A stretch of 64,000 nucleotides of DNA from Acidobacteriota bacterium. GTDB taxonomy: Bacteria; Acidobacteriota; Blastocatellia; Pyrinomonadales; Pyrinomonadaceae. The notes below the pieces were generated by a model, which was not told where the DNA came from, did no database searches, and saw only the letters and a list, made by a program, of their open reading frames with translations. Shown here piece after piece: positions 4,789 through 15,366 of the stretch; positions within the stretch are counted from its first letter, which is position 1, and each line of letters opens with the position of its first letter. The position numbers were made by a program, and so were the translations under genes. The stretch is taken from positions 1 through 64,000 of the forward strand of contig JAOAPX010000073.1 of NCBI GenBank assembly GCA_025463125.1, written 5' to 3'.

Positions 4789-5346
4789 TTAACTTCTATT
4801 GTTATAAAGCTCGCGCTGCAAAAACATCTTGGCGATTTGCCATTCTCGTTTGATTGTCGCAGCCGATATTCCGAGCACTTCGGCGGTTTCTTCGACCGAC
4901 AAGCCGCCGAAAAACCTCAGCTCAAAAACGCGCGACTGGCGATCGTCAAGGCGCGCTAAATTATGCAGAGCCTCGTCTAATTCCAACAAATTCAATTCGC
5001 CTTCGGCAAATGCGTCAACGGCGCGATCAAGCGTGATGCGAACGAAAGTTCCTTCGCGCTTTTGTCTTTTGCGCGCGACGGCGTGATTTACAAGGATTCG
5101 CCGCATCATTTTAGCGGCGATGCTGATAAATTGCGTTCGATTGATAAAAACGCCTTTTTCCTGCTCGGCGAGGCGCAAAAATGCTTCGTGAACCAGCGCC
5201 GTCGGCTGCAATGTGTGATCGGTTCGCTCCTGCCGCATATAAAATGTCGCGAGCCGCCGCAGCTCGTCGTAAACCTGCGGGTAAATGTTCTCCAAATCAG
5301 CGTCCGCTGAATTTTCCGGTTCTCGGGTTAGTGGAATCAGGCTCAT
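4789..5346 (-). CDS. ECF-family RNA polymerase sigma factor (X6-like)
   Basis: Extracytoplasmic-function sigma factor of about 185 aa. Region 2 covers residues 20-95 (VYDELRRLATFYMRQER, then FLRLAEQEK and FISIAAKMMRRILVNHA). Region 4 is an HTH near residues 130-180 (FELRFFGGLSVEETAEVLGISAATIKREW). The DHTLQPTALVHEAFLRL stretch is typical of the sigma group common in Acidobacteria and Planctomycetes that often lacks a classical anti-sigma partner. The ORF is open back to 5478, but the ATG at 5346 (MSLIPLTREP) is the likely start because the upstream 44 residues are a low-complexity translation of an A/T-rich leader. It is divergent from the FHA-protease/kinase cluster, and no anti-sigma gene is adjacent, so control through phosphorylation is an open possibility. 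Confidence 0.93.
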   Translation of the reverse strand: MSLIPLTREPENSADADLENIYPQVYDELRRLATFYMRQERTDHTLQPTALVHEAFLRLAEQEKGVFINRTQFISIAAKMMRRILVNHAVARKRQKREGTFVRITLDRAVDAFAEGELNLLELDEALHNLARLDDRQSRVFELRFFGGLSVEETAEVLGISAATIKREWQIAKMFLQRELYNNRS

Positions 5347-5632
5347 AAAAACAGAAATATCCTGCTTGATTATAAAAAAAATAAAACGAAAAAAAAATGA
5401 GCTGTGTGGGCGAAAAAAATTGCGTATTGATGAAGAGGAAAAAATCCGTACTAAAGCAAAATATTTATTCAAATACAAGTCATATTTTGCAGAGAGATTC
5501 TAGCAGATATCGCTCTCTATTAAAAAGGATTTTAATTTCAAACACCCTAAGAAGCATTTTATAAAAAATAATCGATGAAAACCGGGGCGGTTTTGCGTAA
5601 AACTGCGCGGTCTTTTGAGGAGCAAGAAATCA

Positions 5633-7363
5633 ATGGAAAGAATGATTATTAAACACTTGAGCGGTTCGAAAGCCAATCAGGTCGAAGAATTCGCGCTGCG
5701 TCACCATAACGAACTCGTTTTCGGGCGCGATACGTCCGCGACCGTCAAATACGATCCTGACCGCGATGATTTAGTCGGCAGACAACACGCCAAAATCACG
5801 AGAGATCCGAGCAGCCCCGAAGGATTTTTACTGACAGATTTAAATAGCACGAACGGAACTTTTTACAACAAGCAGCGCATCAGCGGAACGGTTAAGATAA
5901 ATCCGGGCGATTCCGTGCAGTTCGGACCGGGCGGACCCGAATTCGTTTTCGACGTCGAGCCGCGACCGAATAATTTCGCGAAAGCTACAAGAATGGTCGA
6001 TGCGAGCAAGCCTCCGATGCCGCAAACCCGTATGGTCGAAACGGGCGCGAGCGCCATGAGCGCATCCGCCGGCGCAAGCGGCGTCAAGGCTCCCGGAACG
6101 GTCGGAAAAGCGACCGTTGAAAGAATGATCTCGCAAACCGTTCACGAAACGAAATCTTCGCAAACGAAAAAATTCGGCATAATCGGCGCCGTCGCGGCAA
6201 TTGTCGTTCTGGTTCTTTTCGGCGCGGTCATTGGCGGCGCTTACTGGTACAGCAGCAGCCGCGAATCGGCTTTGAAAGACGAAATGGCTGGCAAAACCAC
6301 CGACCTCGAAAAGAAATTATCCGAAGGAAAAGGTTTCACGGCTGCTGACATAAACGACAAATACGGAAAATCCGTCGTTTATTTCGAAGCCGCGTGGCGT
6401 TTGATTAACACCGCGGAACAAGCTCAGGCGTTTCACGCACATTTTTCCCCGGCTGAAGTCAAAGCGCTTTTCAAAGCCGATGTCGGCGCGCCGATTCCTC
6501 TTTACGTGCAGGTGGACGCCAATACTATCGAGCCGGTTTTGCGCTATTCGAAAGGCGCTTCCGATCGCCCGATCGGCGGGGTTCACAGCGGAACCGGATT
6601 TATCGTCACCAATGACGGTTTTGTTTTAACTAATCGCCACGTCGCCGCCGCGTGGATGAGCGTTTATAATTTTCCGCCCGACACTCCGCCCGGAATCGTT
6701 CTTTCCGCCGATTATCGAAACATCGTCAAAATCGGACAAACTCCGCCGATTGATTGGGTTCCGGCAAACAGCCAGCAGGCTGGCGGAATGCTCGGCGGAC
6801 GTTTGAAAGTAGCTTCACCGGCAGAACTTAAAGGCGTTAACGACACGCTCGACATCACTTTGCCCGGTAAAGAATCGAGAATGGCGGCAAGCCTTAAACA
6901 GGTTTCCGATCGCCACGACGTAGCGCTCGTTAAAGTAGACGTTCCCGGACAGCTTACCAAAGCCGAGCTTTTCGACAACTACGACGCGCTCAAAAAAGGC
7001 GAACAGGTCGTCGTTTTAGGTTACCCGGCAGCTTCGCCTCGAACATACGGGATTATCAAATCAAACGACACCTTTAACAGTACGACGCAGATGAAAATGA
7101 TCCCCGACCCGACCGTTACTTTAACGAATATCGGCAACATCATTCGCGACAGCGACAAAGACGATCGAAAACGCGTCAGCACGATGGGCGACGTCATACA
7201 ACTGGCAACGAGCGAAACCGGTTCGGGCAATTCCGGCGGTCCGGTATTTGATATGCAGGGACGCGTGATCGGAATTTTCTTTGCCGGAAGCAGCCGCGGC
7301 GGCGTTAATTTAACCTACGCAGTGCCGATTCGCTACGGTAAGGAGTTTTTAGCGGGCGAATAA
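5633..7363 (+). CDS. FHA domain membrane-anchored trypsin-like serine protease
   Basis: Fusion of a phosphothreonine-reading FHA domain to a protease. The FHA domain (about residues 25-105) shows FGRD, GRQHAKI and LNSTNGTF. A linker with two near-identical TRMV motifs (Thr119, Thr132) follows. One membrane segment lies at about 180-205. The extracytoplasmic S1C-like protease domain has an intact triad by motif: His336 (TNRHVAA), Asp429 (DVALVKVD) and Ser534 (GSGNSGGP). No PDZ domain follows. I start it at the ATG at 5633, 10 nt after GAGGAG; the ORF track's TTG at 5615 lies before that ribosome-binding site. The topology suggests that cytoplasmic phosphorylation signals are passed to a periplasmic protease. 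It precedes kinase, phosphatase and kinase genes on the same strand. Confidence 0.9.
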   Translation: MERMIIKHLSGSKANQVEEFALRHHNELVFGRDTSATVKYDPDRDDLVGRQHAKITRDPSSPEGFLLTDLNSTNGTFYNKQRISGTVKINPGDSVQFGPGGPEFVFDVEPRPNNFAKATRMVDASKPPMPQTRMVETGASAMSASAGASGVKAPGTVGKATVERMISQTVHETKSSQTKKFGIIGAVAAIVVLVLFGAVIGGAYWYSSSRESALKDEMAGKTTDLEKKLSEGKGFTAADINDKYGKSVVYFEAAWRLINTAEQAQAFHAHFSPAEVKALFKADVGAPIPLYVQVDANTIEPVLRYSKGASDRPIGGVHSGTGFIVTNDGFVLTNRHVAAAWMSVYNFPPDTPPGIVLSADYRNIVKIGQTPPIDWVPANSQQAGGMLGGRLKVASPAELKGVNDTLDITLPGKESRMAASLKQVSDRHDVALVKVDVPGQLTKAELFDNYDALKKGEQVVVLGYPAASPRTYGIIKSNDTFNSTTQMKMIPDPTVTLTNIGNIIRDSDKDDRKRVSTMGDVIQLATSETGSGNSGGPVFDMQGRVIGIFFAGSSRGGVNLTYAVPIRYGKEFLAGE

Positions 7364-7481: not shown

Positions 7482-8858
7482 ATGCAGAGACGTTTAAATA
7501 TCGGCGAACAGCTCGGAGAATACCGCATCACGCAATTTTTAGGCGCGGGCGGCATGGGCGAGGTTTATCGCGGCGAACACTCGAAACTCGGACGTTCGGC
7601 GGCGATAAAAGTTTTGCTCTCTTCGGTGACGGACGAATCTTTCCGTCACCGGTTCCACAATGAAGCGCGTCTGCAGGCAAATCTTCATCATCCGCACATC
7701 GCGGCTCTTTACGACTTTCAGGAAATCAGCGGACAGCTTTGTATATTTATGGAGTTTGTTGACGGAACCAGTCTTGAAGATGTCGTTAAAGCTCGCTCAC
7801 TAGCCGTTGAAGACGCCTTACAAATCTTCACCTCAATCGTTGAAGCCGTCGGTTTTATACATTCTCACGGGATTGTTCACCGGGATATTAAATCCCAAAA
7901 CGTCAAGCTGAACGGAATCGGCAAGCCGAAACTTCTCGATTTCGGCATCGCCAAAAATTCCGCCGATACTCACGGCTTGACACAGACCGGCGGCGTCATC
8001 GGAACGCCTCATTACTTAGCACCCGAGCAGCTCGAAGGCAAACCGGCTACGCCTCAAGCCGATATTTGGGCTCTCGGCGTGCTTTTGTACGAAATGCTGA
8101 CGGGCGTTACGCCTTTTCACGGCGATACGCTCGGCGGGCTCGTCTTAAAGATTACGACGGCGCGGTTTTCAGCGCCGGAAACTCTTAACCCGGCGGTTTC
8201 ACGCGAAATCTCCAGAATCGTCGCGCGCTGTTTGAAGAAAAACCTTTCGGAACGATATCAAACGGCAAACGAGCTTTTACGCGACGTGCAAAGCGTCTTG
8301 AGCGGCGGGAAAACTTCGGCGAACGCTTTCGGCAAAACTTTCGGATTTTTCGGAAAGACCGACGAGCAAACGCATTCGCAAAACAATCAAACCGGCTGTG
8401 AATCGCCGCAGGCGGTTTACTCTCCCGATGATTATTCCAGCCCGGCGGAACCGGCGGAAAAACCGAAAAACAAACTGCCGTTCGGCGTGATCGCCGCCGC
8501 TTCTTCGCTTGCGGTCGTCGCGCTTTTTATTTTTGTCGGCGCGGGAATTTATCTATTGAAAAGCTCGAATGACGCTGCGGGAAAAGTCCTCGCGTCGGAC
8601 AAAAATAATACAAATAAATCTTCGGCTGTCGTTGTTCCGAGCGCAGCCGCAAGGCAAATAAAAATCGATGTGGATGAAGGAAAAGCTCACGTTTACCGGG
8701 GAGGTGAATCCATCGGTTCGACCCCTCTCGATTTAACTGTCCAGGACGGCGAAAAACTCGACCTTACACTTCGCCGCGACGGTTTTGAAGACAAAGCCGT
8801 GAAGTTTGAAGCCGTCGGCGGAAAACGCGTTTATACGTTTTCTCTAAAACAAAAATAA
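7482..8858 (+). CDS. Membrane Ser/Thr protein kinase with C-terminal PEGA domain
   Basis: Hanks-type kinase (about residues 13-275). It has a glycine loop GAGGMGEVYRG, the VAIK-like lysine in AAIKVL, catalytic VHRDIKSQN, DFGIAKN and the APE segment GTPHYLAPEQ, so it should be active. A Ser/Pro/Gln-rich juxtamembrane linker leads to one membrane helix at about 332-359. The extracytoplasmic tail carries a single PEGA domain (about 392-458, with GGESIGSTPLDLTV and LRRDGFE), a fold often attached to the cell surface. The start ATG at 7482 directly precedes the kinase fold. A PP2C phosphatase follows 73 bp downstream. Its ligand and targets are unknown. Confidence 0.94.
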   Translation: MQRRLNIGEQLGEYRITQFLGAGGMGEVYRGEHSKLGRSAAIKVLLSSVTDESFRHRFHNEARLQANLHHPHIAALYDFQEISGQLCIFMEFVDGTSLEDVVKARSLAVEDALQIFTSIVEAVGFIHSHGIVHRDIKSQNVKLNGIGKPKLLDFGIAKNSADTHGLTQTGGVIGTPHYLAPEQLEGKPATPQADIWALGVLLYEMLTGVTPFHGDTLGGLVLKITTARFSAPETLNPAVSREISRIVARCLKKNLSERYQTANELLRDVQSVLSGGKTSANAFGKTFGFFGKTDEQTHSQNNQTGCESPQAVYSPDDYSSPAEPAEKPKNKLPFGVIAAASSLAVVALFIFVGAGIYLLKSSNDAAGKVLASDKNNTNKSSAVVVPSAAARQIKIDVDEGKAHVYRGGESIGSTPLDLTVQDGEKLDLTLRRDGFEDKAVKFEAVGGKRVYTFSLKQK

Positions 8859-8931: not shown

Positions 8932-9762
8932 ATGCAAAGCAGCAGAGAAATACAAACAAACAATATTATCGCGAGCGTGCAAACCGACGTCGGCTGCGTG
9001 CGCGAAGCGAATGAAGATTCGGGGCGGCACGTTCAATCGAGCGATCCGCAAATTTTATCAAGCAAGGGAACTTTAACGATCGTTGCAGACGGCATGGGCG
9101 GGCACGCTTCGGGCGAAATCGCTTCGCGGATGGCGGTCGATTTGATCAGCGATTTTTATTACCGTGACACGGCAAATCCGCCGGGCGCGGCTTTGAAAAA
9201 CGCGATCGAAGCGGCGAGCCGCCGAATTTACGAAACGTCGCTTTCGGACGAAAAATATTTCGGAATGGGAACGACGGTCGTCGCCCTGATCCTGCAAAAC
9301 GACAAGGCTTTCGTTGCGCACGTCGGCGACAGCCGCGTTTATCGCCTTCGCGGCGAGGAGTTTCGGCAAATAACCGAAGATCATTCGCAGGTGATGGAAA
9401 TGGTCAGATACGGAATCATCAGCCGCGAAGAAGCCAAAAATCACGATGATAAAAACATAATTCTGCGAGCGATGGGCACGCAGGCGGAAGTCGAAGCCGA
9501 ATTAAGCGATTCTTTCAGCTTTTTGCCCGGAGATATTTTTCTGCTTTGCTCGGACGGTTTGTGCGACATGCTCGACGACGAGCAAACGCGCCGCATTTTA
9601 ATCGCTTCGGGCGACATCCACGAAGCTTGCGAGCGCTTGATCGAAGAAGCGAAACATCGCGGCGGACACGACAATATCACGGTCGGAATCGTAAAAGTTT
9701 TGCCGTCGGGCGAAACGCATACGCGCGCCGTCCGGGCGACGCGCGAAATTAAAGTTTCATAA
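8932..9762 (+). CDS. PP2C-family Ser/Thr protein phosphatase
   Basis: Soluble metal-dependent phosphatase of the Stp/PrpC type, 276 aa. The N-terminal signature DVGCVREANEDS, the metal-binding VADGMGGHASGE, the central VAHVGDSRVYRLR and the late CSDGLCDM and GGHDNITVGIV motifs are all present, so it should be active. Its last 15 residues form a basic tail with two Thr-Arg dyads (THTRAV and RATREI, Thr264 and Thr270) that recall the Thr-Arg motifs in the neighbouring kinase and FHA-protease. It lies between two kinase genes, with gaps of 73 and 33 bp, and is the obvious antagonist of both. Confidence 0.95.
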   Translation: MQSSREIQTNNIIASVQTDVGCVREANEDSGRHVQSSDPQILSSKGTLTIVADGMGGHASGEIASRMAVDLISDFYYRDTANPPGAALKNAIEAASRRIYETSLSDEKYFGMGTTVVALILQNDKAFVAHVGDSRVYRLRGEEFRQITEDHSQVMEMVRYGIISREEAKNHDDKNIILRAMGTQAEVEAELSDSFSFLPGDIFLLCSDGLCDMLDDEQTRRILIASGDIHEACERLIEEAKHRGGHDNITVGIVKVLPSGETHTRAVRATREIKVS

Positions 9763-9795: not shown

Positions 9796-11370
9796 ATGAT
9801 CGGACAAATAGTTGGTAATTATAAAATCGAAGAAAAATTGGGCGAAGGCGGGATGGGCGCGGTTTATAAAGGCGTCGATACGATGCTCGACCGCGAAGTC
9901 GCCATTAAGGTTCTGCGTCCGGAACTGACCAGTCAAACCGCGGTTGTCGAACGATTTCGCTCTGAGGCGGTAACTTTAGCCAAACTGAATCACCCGAATA
10001 TCGCGACGCTTTTCTCGCTTTTCCGCAACGGCAACGAGCTTTTTATGGTTTTGGAATACGTGCGCGGCGAAACGCTCGATAACATTTTGCAGCGGCGCGG
10101 CGCTCTCCCGGCTGAAGAAGCGATCCCGGTTTTTTCGCAGGTTCTCGACGGGATCGACCACGCGCACGATCTGGGCATCGTTCACCGCGATATAAAACCG
10201 GCAAATATGATGCTCACCGAAAAGGGAACTTTGAAAGTGCTCGATTTCGGTATCGCGCGTCTTTTAGGCAGCGCGCGAATGACGCGCGCCGGTAATATCA
10301 TCGGAACGCTCGAATATATGGCTCCCGAACAGGTCAAAGGGCAGGAAACCGACGGGCGAAGCGATATTTACGCGCTCGGAATGATGCTTTACGAAGTGTT
10401 AACCGGAAAATTGCCGTTTCAAACCGAGAACGAATTCGAGCTGATGATGCTGCAAACGGAAAAAATGCCTCAGAGCCCCCGCGAAATAAATCCGGCGATT
10501 CCCGAGGAGGTAGAAGAGGCGATTATGAAAGCGATTCAGAAAAATCCTGACGATCGTTTTCAAACCGCCGGTGAATTTCGCGAGCTGCTTCTCGAAGCCG
10601 GTTTCGGCACGCAAGGCAGAATGCACGGAATTACCGGAACGCACAAAAAACCTTTAACGCACCCGTCGCGCCCGGCGATTTCACAAGCGGGAGCTTCGGC
10701 GGACGCTAAATCGGAACCTGCGCAGGCGGCACCGAAAGAAACCCGTTTAGGCGCGCCAATCGCTCCGCCGCAAAAGCAAAAAGAAATAAAATCAACGCGT
10801 CTCGGCGCGTCTGCGGCAGCTGCCGGCGCGGCTCAAAATCAAGCGGCGAAAGCGACGCGTCTCGGGCAGGCGGCGCCCGCACCGCAACCCGCAACCGCCG
10901 CCGCTGTATCTGGATCGTTTTTCAGTAAATTGAAACCGATTCATTACATCGGCGCGGGCGTCGCCGTTTTGCTTCTGATCGGCGTCGTTGTCGCCGTTCC
11001 GCTGATAATGTTCGGCGTGAGCGTCTCAAATGCGATTGACGCGAAAGCCGCCGAAGAGAAAAAAGTCGAACAATTGAAAATAGAAGAAGCGCAAAAACCC
11101 GCGATCGTCGAACTGCCGAAACAAGCGCCGCCCGAATCACAAACAACGTCCGTGCCTGTTGCGCCGCCCGATGCCGCGACGGTAAACGCCCAGCAGCCTC
11201 TTAACCTGGAAGCGATTGAAACTAAACCGGTCGGTTCGAAACCGGATGAAAAACCGATTGAAAAGCCTTCGACCACCGCGCCGAAGCCAGCCGCGCCGAA
11301 ACCTTTGGCTCCGAAAAAACCAGCGGCTAAAAAACCGAGCCTTGAAGACATGATGACAGATGACGGTTAA
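9796..11370 (+). CDS. Membrane Ser/Thr protein kinase with Thr-Arg repeat linker
   Basis: Kinase domain at residues 8-275: GEGGMGAVYKG, VAIKVL, VHRDIKPANMM, DFGIARL, and an activation loop MTRAGNIIGT with Thr163 as the likely autophosphorylation site. The linker (about 290-380) is Ala/Pro/Gln-rich and repeats TRLG three times at Thr316, Thr334 and Thr354, each preceded by K plus one residue. A membrane helix at about 383-410 follows. The external tail is Lys/Pro/Ala-rich with PK repeats, which would suit contact with the wall or polysaccharide. The ATG is preceded by AGGAG. It belongs to the operon-like run from the PP2C gene to the repeat protein 49 bp downstream. Confidence 0.94.
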   Translation: MIGQIVGNYKIEEKLGEGGMGAVYKGVDTMLDREVAIKVLRPELTSQTAVVERFRSEAVTLAKLNHPNIATLFSLFRNGNELFMVLEYVRGETLDNILQRRGALPAEEAIPVFSQVLDGIDHAHDLGIVHRDIKPANMMLTEKGTLKVLDFGIARLLGSARMTRAGNIIGTLEYMAPEQVKGQETDGRSDIYALGMMLYEVLTGKLPFQTENEFELMMLQTEKMPQSPREINPAIPEEVEEAIMKAIQKNPDDRFQTAGEFRELLLEAGFGTQGRMHGITGTHKKPLTHPSRPAISQAGASADAKSEPAQAAPKETRLGAPIAPPQKQKEIKSTRLGASAAAAGAAQNQAAKATRLGQAAPAPQPATAAAVSGSFFSKLKPIHYIGAGVAVLLLIGVVVAVPLIMFGVSVSNAIDAKAAEEKKVEQLKIEEAQKPAIVELPKQAPPESQTTSVPVAPPDAATVNAQQPLNLEAIETKPVGSKPDEKPIEKPSTTAPKPAAPKPLAPKKPAAKKPSLEDMMTDDG

Positions 11371-11419: not shown

Positions 11420-12529
11420 ATGAAACGCATTATTTACTTATTTATTTTAGTTGTGCTCGCTATGTCCGTAACGGTTTTCGGTCAGAGAAACAAACCGACG
11501 ACGAAAACCGGGTTGGTCAAAACCTTACGCTCGAAGCAATTTCAAACCCGGCAGATCGTCGGCTTTATCGAAGATCGCGGCGTAGATTTTAAATTAACCC
11601 CGGACATCGAGGAAGAATTAATCGCCGCCGGGGCGCGCCCGCAGGTTCTCGAAGCCGTAAAAAACAATTACCGCGCATCGGTTCCGGTTTCAAATGTCGG
11701 AAGCAAAAACAGCGGTAAAAACAATACGAATAAGAACAGCGGCAGCGAAGCTTTAACCAAAGACCGTTTACTGAAAACGCTGCGTTCGAAAACCGTCAGC
11801 AACGGCGTTTTACTCGATTCGATCGAGAAGAACGGCGTGAGTTTTGAAACGACAGCCGCGGTCGAAAAAGAGCTGTCCGCCGCCGGAGCTTCGCCGGCAA
11901 TTATCGCCGCCGTAAAAAATGCTTACAGCGGCAACCGGGCTTCGATCGAAGACGGCGAGCCGGTTTCCGCTTCGAGCCGCTACGAAAACCTGATCGAACA
12001 GGCAATCGAAACTTATAACCGCGACGTGAATTCGAGCCTTCCGCCAAACTCAGCCGGGCGTCTCGAAGCGATTAAAACTTTGACCGAAGCGGCAAAATTG
12101 CAGCCGAATAACCCGATCGCTTTTCAGCAAATCGGCTTTATGGTGCTTTACGGAACGCTCAACGGGTTTTCGCTGGCGGAAACCGGTTTTCGCAAAGCTT
12201 TAGACCTCGGCGGCAGCGCTGTTTTTCGCGTTTTCCACGATCACGACGGGATTTTTCAGGACGTTTGCCATGGCTCGCTTTACGTATCGAAAGACGGCGT
12301 TCGCTTTGAATCGGACGATAATAAGCATACTTTCGACACGACCGATGCGAATATCAAGCAGGTAAAAACCAACAGCAGCTGGAGACGCGCGTTTCAAATC
12401 AAAAGCGGTTCGTTCAAGATCGTCTTAAACGATCAGAGCGACAAGGACGGGAAAAAATTCAGCTTCGCGCCGCTGACCGATAACATCGAAGAATCGAAAA
12501 TGGTTATCCGTTTAATCGGCAAGCAGTAA
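11420..12529 (+). CDS. Secreted protein with two internal repeats and a C-terminal PH-like domain
   Basis: Function not known. A signal peptide (IIYLFILVVLAMSVTVFGQ) is followed by two tandem copies of a roughly 57-residue helical unit. The first begins GLVKTLRSKQF and ends EAVKNNYR; the second begins RLLKTLRSKTV and ends AAVKNAYS. Each contains a conserved EELxAAGAxP turn. A Ser/Asn linker separates the copies. Residues 180-270 look TPR-like (AIKTLTEAAKLQPNNPIAFQQIG). The last 100 residues (HGSLYVSKDGVRFESDD onward) are beta-rich and resemble a PH-like fold. GCAAGGAG precedes the ATG. Being last in the kinase run, it may be a periplasmic partner or target of the kinase tails; this is inference. 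Confidence 0.8.
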   Translation: MKRIIYLFILVVLAMSVTVFGQRNKPTTKTGLVKTLRSKQFQTRQIVGFIEDRGVDFKLTPDIEEELIAAGARPQVLEAVKNNYRASVPVSNVGSKNSGKNNTNKNSGSEALTKDRLLKTLRSKTVSNGVLLDSIEKNGVSFETTAAVEKELSAAGASPAIIAAVKNAYSGNRASIEDGEPVSASSRYENLIEQAIETYNRDVNSSLPPNSAGRLEAIKTLTEAAKLQPNNPIAFQQIGFMVLYGTLNGFSLAETGFRKALDLGGSAVFRVFHDHDGIFQDVCHGSLYVSKDGVRFESDDNKHTFDTTDANIKQVKTNSSWRRAFQIKSGSFKIVLNDQSDKDGKKFSFAPLTDNIEESKMVIRLIGKQ

Positions 12530-12554
12530 AAGCTTGAAGACAAACTCTCCCCGG

Positions 12555-12600
12555 AAAAAGGCGGCAATCGATCGAAAGAAGATTGCCGCCTTTTTCGTTT
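12555..12600. terminator. Bidirectional factor-independent terminator
   Basis: A perfect 15-bp stem (AAAAAGGCGGCAATC at 12555-12569 with its complement at 12581-12595) is flanked by A-tract and T-tract. It lies between the convergent repeat-protein gene (+) and TPR kinase gene (-), so it can end transcription from both sides. Confidence 0.9.
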
Positions 12601-12657: not shown

Positions 12658-15366
12658 TTATAAAAAGTAGCCGGTTTGCAGATTTCGCAGATTAGTTTTA
12701 ACTTTTTCCAGATCGTTTCGGCGGCTTAAATTTTCCGGCGAAGTTTTGAACAGATTTTCAAAAATCGGCAATGCGGCGGCAAAGTTCTCGTAAGCTTTTT
12801 CCTTATTTTTTTTCTTTAAATAAGCTTCGCCGATACGCAGAAAGGACATCGCGACATCATGCCGGTAATCGGTGTTTTGCGGATCGCCGGCGGTTATTTC
12901 TTTTGAGCCGTTCAAACATTTCTCGTAAATATCAAGCGCTTTTGTCGCCTCTTCTTTCGCCAGGTAAATATCAGCCAGATGTCGCCGCGTAAAAAGAATC
13001 TGCCGCCGGGCGGCTATATTGACGGCATCGGTTTTGGCGACCGCTTCGTAATGCGCGATTGCTTCAAGATAAGCTTTTTCGGCTTGTTCGTAATTTTTAT
13101 TTAGGGCGAGCGTCCAGCCGAGTTCCAAAAAGCAATCGGCAAGACCGTTCTGCTCGCCGAAATTGGCTTTATCGGCATCGAAAATCGATTGCTGGATTGA
13201 TAAAGCGTCGCGAAGGCGCTTTAAGCTTTCATCCATCCGGTTAAGACTGCGCAAAGCTATCCCGACCCATAATTCAGCGATAGCAAGACTCGCGCGATAC
13301 TGTTTGTTGTTCGGATCTGTCTCCAAAACTTTTTCTTCGATAGCAAGAGCGTCAGAAAAAAAACGCAAAGCTTCGTTTTGCCCGCCGATCTCGAGCTTCG
13401 CATAGCCTGCGTAGGAATAATAAGCGCTCAAAAGTCGCTCTAACTGCAAATCGCCCGGATTGTCTTCGATTACGCGTTTAATTGTGGAGATAGCTTTCTC
13501 GTAATAATTTAAAGCGTTTGAAAGCGAACCGCTGCGCAGAATCGCTTGCCCGAGCATCGCGTAAGAGCGGCTCGCGCTTTTGAGCAGCTGCACGTTTTCC
13601 GGTTCGATTGAAAGCAGTTTTTCGTGAAGAGCGACGGCTTTATTATAATACTCGACGGCGCTTGCCGTATTTCCGATCATCGACGAAACGTTTCCGATCT
13701 TGACGTAGCTTTGCGCGAGCTCGAGCCCGCTTTGAACGTCTTGCGGGCTGCGGCTGTAAATTATTTCGCGCATTTGCAGAGCTTTTCTATGGCTTTCGTA
13801 TGCGCCCTGAGAATTGCCGAGACCGGGCTTGAAAATTTCCGACTGCACATCGCCGATTTTTTCGTAAGCCGTGGCAAGCTCGCTTTGCAGCGTGATATCG
13901 GAATCGGCTTCGGCGGCGAGTTTGTCGAGATATTCAATGGCGCGCATCACCAGCAGTTCGCGCGCTTTGATCGGGCTTTCGTCGATTTTTTCGTTTATCT
14001 CGAACATAAACGAATTTGCAAGGGCTCGCACATCCTTAAATCGCCGCTCGGCTTTGGCGCGCTCGGCGATGGCGATTTGTCTCTGGTAATTTGAAATTAA
14101 AAGCCCGCCCGATAAACAAACAAAAGCCAGCAAAGTCGCGGCAAAAGCCAAAGGATTGCGCGAAACGAATTTTTCCGCGCGGTAAAGAAAAGTGTCGGGG
14201 CGAGCCGTTACGGGCAAACCAGCCAGGTGTCTCCGGATGTCTTCGGCAAAAAGCTCGACCGATTTGTATCGCCGCTCCGGGTTCTTTCTAAGAGCTTTGA
14301 GAATGATGTTGTCGAGATCGGTTTTTATAATTGATCTGAAAAACAGAAGCCGGGAAAAAAACGGCGCGTCCGGCGAAGAAACGCCGCTTTGCGTTTCTCG
14401 TTTTCGCTGATCGTTCGCGTTTTTTGTCAGCGCTTCGCTCGGTTTGACCGGCGCTGTTTCGGCAATGGCGTGAAGCAGTTGTTCGGCGTTCGAACTGCTT
14501 GCGGCGAAAGGTCTCTGTCCTGTAACGAGCTCGTAAAGAATTATGCCGAGACCGTAAATATCGGTCGCCGTGGTAATCGCTCCGCCGGTAATTTGTTCCG
14601 GGCTCGCGTATTCCGGCGTCAGCGCCTGGAATCTGGTGACGGTAGCGTTTATCTCGTTTTCCGACAGCAGCTTGGCAATTCCGAAATCGAGCAGTTTCGG
14701 TATGCCGTCCTCGTTTATTAAAATATTATCCGGCTTTAAATCGCGGTGAACGATCAAGTTTCGATGCGCGAAGGAAACGGCTTCACAAACTTTTCTGAAA
14801 AGATCGAGCTTTTCGCTGAGCGACAAGTTTTTTTCAGCGGCATAACGCGTGATCGGCGTGCCGCGAACGTGCTCCATGACGAGAAAAGGCGTGTTTTCTT
14901 CGGTCGCTCCGCCGTCTAAAAGCTGCGCGATGTAAGGATGTTTCAGCCGCGCGAGGATTTGTCTTTCCTGCTGAAATTTTTGTTTCGCCGAAGAATTGAA
15001 AAAGCTTCGGCGCAGGATTTTAACGGCGACCTGCTGTTCGAATTCGCCGTCTGTGCGTTCAGCCAGAAAAACCATTCCCATTCCGCCCGAACCGAGCTCG
15101 CTGATGATGCGATATTTGCCGATTTTCATTCCGACGAAATTGTCCGCCGCGTCTGCGGCAGATAATTCCTTGAATGCCGTCGAGAAGGCGGGTTTGTCGA
15201 ACACGTCGCCGCCTGCGTTTTCAAAAGCGAGGAAAGACTCGACTTCGCGCAGCAGCTCGTCGTCGCCCGAGCAGGCGTTTTTTAAATAAACCTCGCGTTC
15301 GGTCGGTGAAATTTCCATCGCCGTTTCCAAAACGCTTTTTAAATGCTGCCAACGCTCAGGGGTCAT
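12658..15366 (-). CDS. Large Ser/Thr protein kinase with TPR sensor domain
   Basis: A 902-residue kinase of the type expanded in Acidobacteria. An N-terminal helical region (residues 1-75, TPERWQHLKSVLETAMEI) precedes the kinase domain at about 85-385, with GSGGMGMVFLAE, VAVKIL, HRDLKPDNIL, DFGIAKLL and LTPEYASPEQ, so all catalytic motifs are intact. One membrane helix lies at about 408-430. The remaining 470 residues hold many TPR units (for example ALNYYEKAISTIKRV, AEKAYLEAIAHYEAV, ALDIYEKCLNGS), predicted outside the membrane. It converges on the kinase/phosphatase cluster and so is a separate transcript. The PP2C phosphatase may also act on it. Confidence 0.94.
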   Translation of the reverse strand: MTPERWQHLKSVLETAMEISPTEREVYLKNACSGDDELLREVESFLAFENAGGDVFDKPAFSTAFKELSAADAADNFVGMKIGKYRIISELGSGGMGMVFLAERTDGEFEQQVAVKILRRSFFNSSAKQKFQQERQILARLKHPYIAQLLDGGATEENTPFLVMEHVRGTPITRYAAEKNLSLSEKLDLFRKVCEAVSFAHRNLIVHRDLKPDNILINEDGIPKLLDFGIAKLLSENEINATVTRFQALTPEYASPEQITGGAITTATDIYGLGIILYELVTGQRPFAASSSNAEQLLHAIAETAPVKPSEALTKNANDQRKRETQSGVSSPDAPFFSRLLFFRSIIKTDLDNIILKALRKNPERRYKSVELFAEDIRRHLAGLPVTARPDTFLYRAEKFVSRNPLAFAATLLAFVCLSGGLLISNYQRQIAIAERAKAERRFKDVRALANSFMFEINEKIDESPIKARELLVMRAIEYLDKLAAEADSDITLQSELATAYEKIGDVQSEIFKPGLGNSQGAYESHRKALQMREIIYSRSPQDVQSGLELAQSYVKIGNVSSMIGNTASAVEYYNKAVALHEKLLSIEPENVQLLKSASRSYAMLGQAILRSGSLSNALNYYEKAISTIKRVIEDNPGDLQLERLLSAYYSYAGYAKLEIGGQNEALRFFSDALAIEEKVLETDPNNKQYRASLAIAELWVGIALRSLNRMDESLKRLRDALSIQQSIFDADKANFGEQNGLADCFLELGWTLALNKNYEQAEKAYLEAIAHYEAVAKTDAVNIAARRQILFTRRHLADIYLAKEEATKALDIYEKCLNGSKEITAGDPQNTDYRHDVAMSFLRIGEAYLKKKNKEKAYENFAAALPIFENLFKTSPENLSRRNDLEKVKTNLRNLQTGYFL

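Follow-up and report, generated by a model that had tools for sequence, protein, structure and literature searches.

The window, by which we mean the whole stretch of 64,000 nucleotides analysed from a genome of the class Blastocatellia (Acidobacteriota), carries a run of co-directional genes, separated by gaps of about 33-120 nt, that closes with a gene for a protein of 369 amino acids. The features of the locus are as follows.

4789..5478, minus strand: divergent ECF sigma factor (TIGR02999 type)
5615..7363, plus strand: first gene of the run, protein with FHA domain, transmembrane (TM) segment and trypsin-like protease, used as operon marker
7482..8858, plus strand: STPK_A, Ser/Thr kinase with TM segment and PEGA-like extracytoplasmic end
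8932..9762, plus strand: PP2C phosphatase of the Stp1/IreP type (NF033484 over cut-off)
9796..11370, plus strand: STPK_B, the paired Ser/Thr kinase, with one TM segment (residues ~382-408) and a Pro/Lys-rich tail, predicted to be extracytoplasmic
11326..11367, plus strand: C-terminal tail peptide of STPK_B, AKKPSLEDMMTDDG, at the conserved tail position
11420..12529, plus strand: secreted unit-unit-TPR-PH protein, 369 aa
11420..11485, plus strand: signal peptide, residues ~1-22, without lipobox cysteine (sequence inspection)
11495..11677, plus strand: unit 1, residues 26-86, four helices
11756..11935, plus strand: unit 2, residues 113-172, four helices
11969..12205, plus strand: two TPR-like helical hairpins, residues 184-262 (model and sub-threshold Pfam TPR)
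12215..12517, plus strand: PH/GRAM/PTB-like fold, residues 266-366 (model and Foldseek)
12554..12596, plus strand: intrinsic terminator directly 3' of the gene for the 369-aa protein

The terminator has a 16-bp outer stem and a U-run (-29.2 kcal/mol, z -5.1), and its strength and position directly 3' make the gene for the 369-aa protein the last of the run, as a first reading of the sequence had placed it. Genome G001 has the same gene order (FHA-protease, STPK_A, PP2C, STPK_B, 369-aa protein), and modestly altered forms of it occur in several further families of the class, Chloracidobacterium-like genomes among them; the ECF sigma factor likewise occurs in G001 and close to the Chloracidobacterium-like loci. 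On the far side of the terminator, and convergent to the operon, lies a third kinase with TPR-like C-terminal repeats (window 12658-15366, minus strand); both G001 and the Chloracidobacterium-like genomes have a kinase of this type next to the locus.

The open reading frame 11420-12529 is preceded by a Shine-Dalgarno-like AAGGAG about 10 nt 5' of its start. Its signal-peptide-like N-terminus, MKRIIYLFILVVLAMSVTVFGQ, has equivalents in the relatives of the protein, and the signal peptide bears out the earlier assignment as a secreted protein. The two units are a true duplication: the Smith-Waterman score of unit 1 against unit 2 is 127, against a mean of 21 and a maximum of 47 for 2000 shuffles, with 42% identity in the aligned part and a length of about 60 residues each. 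The sequence-only reading had described two copies of a unit of roughly 57 residues with an LLKTLRSK start and an AAGAxP turn; the repeat is real, and both motifs are present (starts LVKTLRSK/LLKTLRSK, turns AAGARP/AAGASP). Relatives with a single unit retain unit 1 only.

Structure prediction, which had been proposed as a check, yielded two four-helix units, TPR-like hairpins and a PH-fold end. The AlphaFold2 model, built on a 6-sequence alignment, has a mean pLDDT of 76.8, with most domain blocks at 78-96. Helices span residues 29-38, 43-53, 61-69 and 74-82 in unit 1 and 114-123, 128-138, 146-154 and 159-171 in unit 2; residues 184-262 form four TPR-like helices, and residues 266-366 form seven strands followed by a C-terminal helix. 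In Foldseek searches against the PDB the C-terminal domain matched SSRP1 (TMt 0.68 at 2.5 A), the PH domain of Sin1 (TMt 0.66) and the PTB domain of Numb (TMt 0.57), with PTB/FERM F3 also among the fold matches. As modelled, the C-terminal domain is thus a PH/GRAM superfold, with its seven-stranded barrel and C-terminal helix, and the predicted order of a TPR-like part followed by a beta-rich, PH-like C-terminus agrees with both the model and the PH/PTB matches. The unit alone, modelled from 11 units, again gave four helices (pLDDT 81.6), and Foldseek returned no PDB fold match for it below E 1.0. Within the PH-like domain H273, C283 and G285 are invariant in the A1 set. In most relatives strand 1 ends in HxH (or HxD) and strand 2 opens with Cys-x-Gly; the two motifs, changed in a few members (L131, L135), are expected to be neighbours in the hairpin and are a possible metal site.

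Searches of Pfam, NCBIfam and PDB sequences gave no model over the units, and the match to a known unrelated family that had been named as counter-evidence was not found there. TPR_11 scored 16.8 bits on the 369-aa protein, below the Pfam gathering cut-off of 26.8, and Pfam gave no PH/GRAM match above cut-off. A named family was considered for the whole protein and set aside, the Pfam, NCBIfam and PDB sequence searches giving only sub-threshold hits to TPR, FapA_N, MamA and similar models. Among 17 relatives a Pfam scan gave TPR and, in some, weak matches to GRAM (best E 9e-4) and POB3_N PH models, and sub-threshold Pfam TPR matches occur in most family members. The architecture thus falls outside the named families of these libraries, as had been suspected, and the four-helix unit is undescribed.

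Full or near-full relatives were found in 28 of the 162 genomes of the class; outside it, in 396 genomes sampled across the phylum, there were only partial matches, mostly to the PH-like end. At most loci the gene immediately 5' of a full-length relative is a kinase gene, or a tandem copy that itself follows a kinase gene, and this linkage extends to four or more further families of the class. A kinase or pseudokinase is directly 5' (or 5' of a tandem copy) in G000, G001, G095, G120, G145, G011, G035, G147, G148, G037, G056, G048, G052, G044, G046, G050, G054, G064, G154, G065, G066 and others; a search with five closer relatives yielded 5 named loci. Across the 162 genomes the protein and the FHA-protease marker occur together in 22, the protein only in 6, the marker only in 11 and neither in 123 (Fisher p 6e-14), a value inflated by relatedness, so that the genus-level figure (12/4/5/32, p 3e-5) is the fairer one. 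The window's genome has about 30 kinase matches, and 20 of its other kinases have neither a unit neighbour nor such a tail. Absence of kinase linkage elsewhere, which would have told against the first reading, is not what was found: the linkage is strong in several Blastocatellia families. For a unit-TPR-PH family, defined in this analysis within Blastocatellia by a signal peptide followed by one or more units, TPR hairpins and a PH-like end, the 369-aa protein has the required domain order, and its gene is 3'-adjacent to a TM kinase with a conserved C-terminal peptide.

The unit itself is more widespread. Outside the class, 16 of 18 unit-bearing loci are not beside a kinase, which rules out a strict kinase linkage of the unit everywhere and suggests that the role of the four-helix unit in the envelope is probably broader, its use beside kinases being a recruitment within Blastocatellia. 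Several variants were seen at single loci. Within the class, the unit forms the N-terminal part of secreted proteins in L091, L092 and L098 that by eye resemble S10 peptidases and are encoded away from kinases, and it is present in other kinds of protein as well. The secreted proteins of L194 and L195 (G399, outside the class), encoded near kinases, have C-terminal units and a PH-like N-terminal region, and may represent a permuted version of the unit and PH-like theme in another family. In L036 (9672-10343, G009) the first part of the operon's PP2C and the TPR-PH end share one reading frame, an arrangement that deletion of the remaining PP2C, STPK_B and the unit would give, although a faulty assembly may also account for it. 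In G050 the first relative (L045:9903-10940) looks frame-broken or interrupted by an internal stop.

A second class of pairing, type II, was found in 45 of the 162 genomes of the class, where the partner is a secreted unit-TPR-TonB_C protein (TonB_C confirmed by Pfam in two examples). Type II units are recovered, with E values of 1e-10 to 1e-15, by a unit model built from type I only. In place of a full kinase, the 5' position may be taken by degenerate or kinase-less proteins, of which the following were delimited.

G000:C128 (L049:5539-8537) and 36 further loci: type II locus, pseudokinase with a VTVDDLINDN-like end directly 5' of the unit-TPR-TonB_C gene
L040:4141-4548, L128:9488-10102 and L129:7948-8478: kinase-less TM-plus-tail proteins

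Nearly every product of the type II kinase-like genes has a TM-like stretch, which lies about 106-145 residues before the C-terminus. Where the loops are readable, HRD is replaced by HRV, HQN, HCG, HSN, HGS or HRN and DFG by AFG or VFG, a few keeping HGD, so that most of these 5' genes look from their sequences like pseudokinases; two examples checked had no Pfam kinase match and retained the peptide. In the TrpS-linked group of single-unit relatives (G024, G086, G087) the 5' proteins consist of a TM segment and tail without a kinase domain (135, 204 and 176 aa, respectively). They end in RLRRAEIILTGI (G024), RLRRAEKILTGI (G086) and RLRRAERILTGV (G087), with the shared form RLRRAExILTG, and the G001 pseudokinase end, RLRRAEKLLTGF, resembles them. 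A further 5' TM-tail gene, in G027 (L042:8500-9100, G027:C99), looks frame-broken or has an internal stop.

Among the relatives of STPK_B the linker is poorly conserved and the last residues are conserved. Column information over the last six positions is 1.7-2.9 bits in type I and 2.5-4.4 bits in type II, against 0.5-1.5 bits in comparison kinases and about 0.6 bits in linkers. Type II tails end like KKxVTVDDLINDN, and 36 of 37 type II 5' genes end in [DE][DE][LIM][LIM]x1-4, a pattern absent from all 54 comparison kinases (0/54); the tail motif patterns were partly chosen after the tails had been seen. The sole exception among the 37, L159, has a different end and may be frame-disrupted. A single regular expression for the tails of all types was ruled out, since no more than 3 of 24 type I tails fit the type II-derived pattern (p 0.027); a looser pattern that matches 19 of 24 type I tails is post hoc, chosen after the tails were viewed. 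There are several tail forms (DDLINDN, ILTG, CxxTGDC, LDQ), which leaves a single binding mode less than certain.

The association of peptide and partner is also visible within genomes. In G037, G056, G048 and G044 the protein lies between two STPK_B copies, of which the 5' copy ends in LLDQ/LLNQ and the 3' copy in GGFFKKIFGG...KK or a similar basic tail, and in those operon copies of G037 and G048 that lack the secreted protein, the tail is basic and unrelated and the peptide is missing. STPK_B copies that have no unit partner (L032:7468, L033:10304, L035:10631, L038:6569) carry a basic tail of the GGFFKKIFGGGDKKKEEKK type, which resembles an amphipathic membrane-binding helix. One comparison kinase, in L041, ends in NCVFTNSCG and resembles some unit-paired tails; its operon encodes a divergent unit+FGE protein two genes 3' of the kinase, whose unit is detected at E 8e-8 by a model that excludes it (best shuffle 0.48). 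The L208 kinase, which ends in DCIFTGDC, lies 5' of a unit+beta protein. The tail peptide thus appears specific to unit-paired kinases. As it is kept without kinase activity or kinase domain, the tail-partner pair outlives both, and it may be this pair, not the kinase alone, that selection keeps, the kinase-less anchors providing the strongest argument.

The sequence-only reading had suggested a periplasmic receptor or ligand module for the kinase tails. This reading is upheld in part. The connection to the tails is independently strengthened by the conserved C-terminal peptide, which is found on precisely those 5' proteins and is retained when the kinase domain is degenerate or absent; for the role itself, receptor, ligand carrier and simple tether are all candidates. 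We think it fairly probable that the 369-aa protein acts in the periplasm, after secretion, as a co-receptor or tether docking on the STPK_B tail, likely through its unit. The kinase domain of STPK_B would be cytoplasmic, with the TM helix and the long Pro/Lys-rich linker carrying the C-terminal peptide into the periplasm, where a four-helix unit, most likely unit 1, would dock on it. The TPR and PH-like domains may in turn pass on to STPK_B a signal that comes from the envelope or depends on a ligand, this being the presumed direction, and inside the cell the PP2C would oppose the kinase and the FHA-protease would read phosphothreonine.

Which domain binds the peptide deserves consideration, since the binding of short or C-terminal peptides is a classic function of TPR and PTB-like folds, as in the TPR carboxylate clamp of HOP with EEVD and in PTB/FERM-F3 domains with receptor tails. 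Binding by the TPR or PH-like domain, with the unit bound to something else in the envelope, would suit the fold match of the C-terminal domain to PTB/FERM F3 and the presence of TPR, like the unit, in both type I and type II partners. We nevertheless regard it as rather unlikely, because partners with a unit and neither TPR nor PH (unit+beta, unit+FGE) pair with peptide-bearing kinases (ends of the CxxTGDC/CVFEGRC type), whereas the 5' kinases of unit-less TPR-PH partners (L107-L110; G049, G057, G041, G045) lack the peptide. Those L107-L110 kinases have an FGE/SUMF outside domain (Pfam-checked in L108) and lie directly 5' of secreted TPR-PH-like proteins in which an N-terminal, beta-looking domain replaces the unit. 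Together with a kinase of G065 whose outside tail itself includes a unit (residues 435-492, beyond the TM segment; E 1e-12 by the type I-only model), this comparison favours the unit as the docking module. A wider generalisation, a modular docking code of the Acidobacteriota periplasm in which the unit reads short C-terminal peptides on the long Pro-rich tails of inner-membrane proteins and interchangeable secreted sensors (TPR-PH, TPR-TonB_C, FGE, beta) plug into kinases, pseudokinases and bare anchors, is offered tentatively, and we lean somewhat against it.

Two further explanations would make the link to the kinase indirect or incidental. The 369-aa protein might be a substrate, inhibitor or cofactor of the operon's FHA-anchored trypsin-like protease, with which it shares a predicted compartment and co-occurs strongly; yet the kinase-less and type II loci keep the TM-tail neighbour and have no FHA-protease gene in the fetched stretch, and the conserved neighbour is the tail-bearing gene, which makes this very improbable. 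Alternatively it could be an ordinary envelope protein inherited with the operon and without functional contact with the kinase, in keeping with the many proteins in which units occur away from kinases. There is little chance of this either, given a tail peptide that appears specific to unit-paired kinases and to outlive kinase activity and domain, the fusion of a unit to the outside tail of the G065 kinase, and the emergence of the pairing with several unrelated partner architectures.

The proposed docking of a secreted partner on a kinase tail has parallels in known systems, although no paper on a kinase-tail/secreted-partner pairing was found within the open-access literature. RtkS of Serratia marcescens is a periplasmic activator of the T6SS kinase PpkA; it binds the periplasmic part of this Hanks-type kinase, which it stabilises or activates, depends on modification by DsbA and has been described as having no relation to known signalling proteins (PMC6082577). 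Like the 369-aa protein it has a signal peptide, and its gene adjoins PP2C and FHA genes, but compared by description it differs in having no reported unit, TPR or PH domain. TagR, from the TagQRST-PpkA-PppA-Fha1 system of Pseudomonas aeruginosa, is periplasmic and a proposed activator of PpkA via its periplasmic domain (PMC10482370). The likeness again lies in a kinase/PP2C/FHA pathway. TagR is FGE/SUMF-like, and an FGE domain also occurs in some of the unit partners described above, but the 369-aa protein has no FGE match in Pfam. A role as T6SS regulator was ruled out, the T6SS sheath gene VipB/TssC not being found in the window's genome (94% complete). With neither an FGE match nor this sheath gene, the likeness is by inference only: the 369-aa protein may work like RtkS and TagR, and we do not file it as a member of either group.

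The PASTA kinases (PknB/PrkC/StkP) share with this operon a membrane Hanks-type kinase and an operon-mate Stp1-type PP2C. In contrast to them, STPK_B has no folded outside sensor by Pfam, its Pro/Lys-rich linker ending in a short peptide, and the part of the sensor appears to fall to a second, secreted protein; the score of the PASTA-kinase model is below its cut-off. PH/GRAM/PTB proteins share the seven strands and C-terminal helix, with the SSRP1, Sin1 and Numb fold matches, but here the PH-like domain is predicted to be extracytoplasmic and is appended to TPR and an undescribed unit.

Many membrane Ser/Thr kinases of poorly studied phyla have no folded outside sensor. If the proposed docking is true, it would explain one large set of them, the sensor being a separate secreted protein that recognises a peptide at the outer end of the kinase, and the partners of kinases and pseudokinases would be predictable from their last residues. 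It would also mean that a tail-partner pair can outlive both the activity of the kinase and the kinase domain itself.
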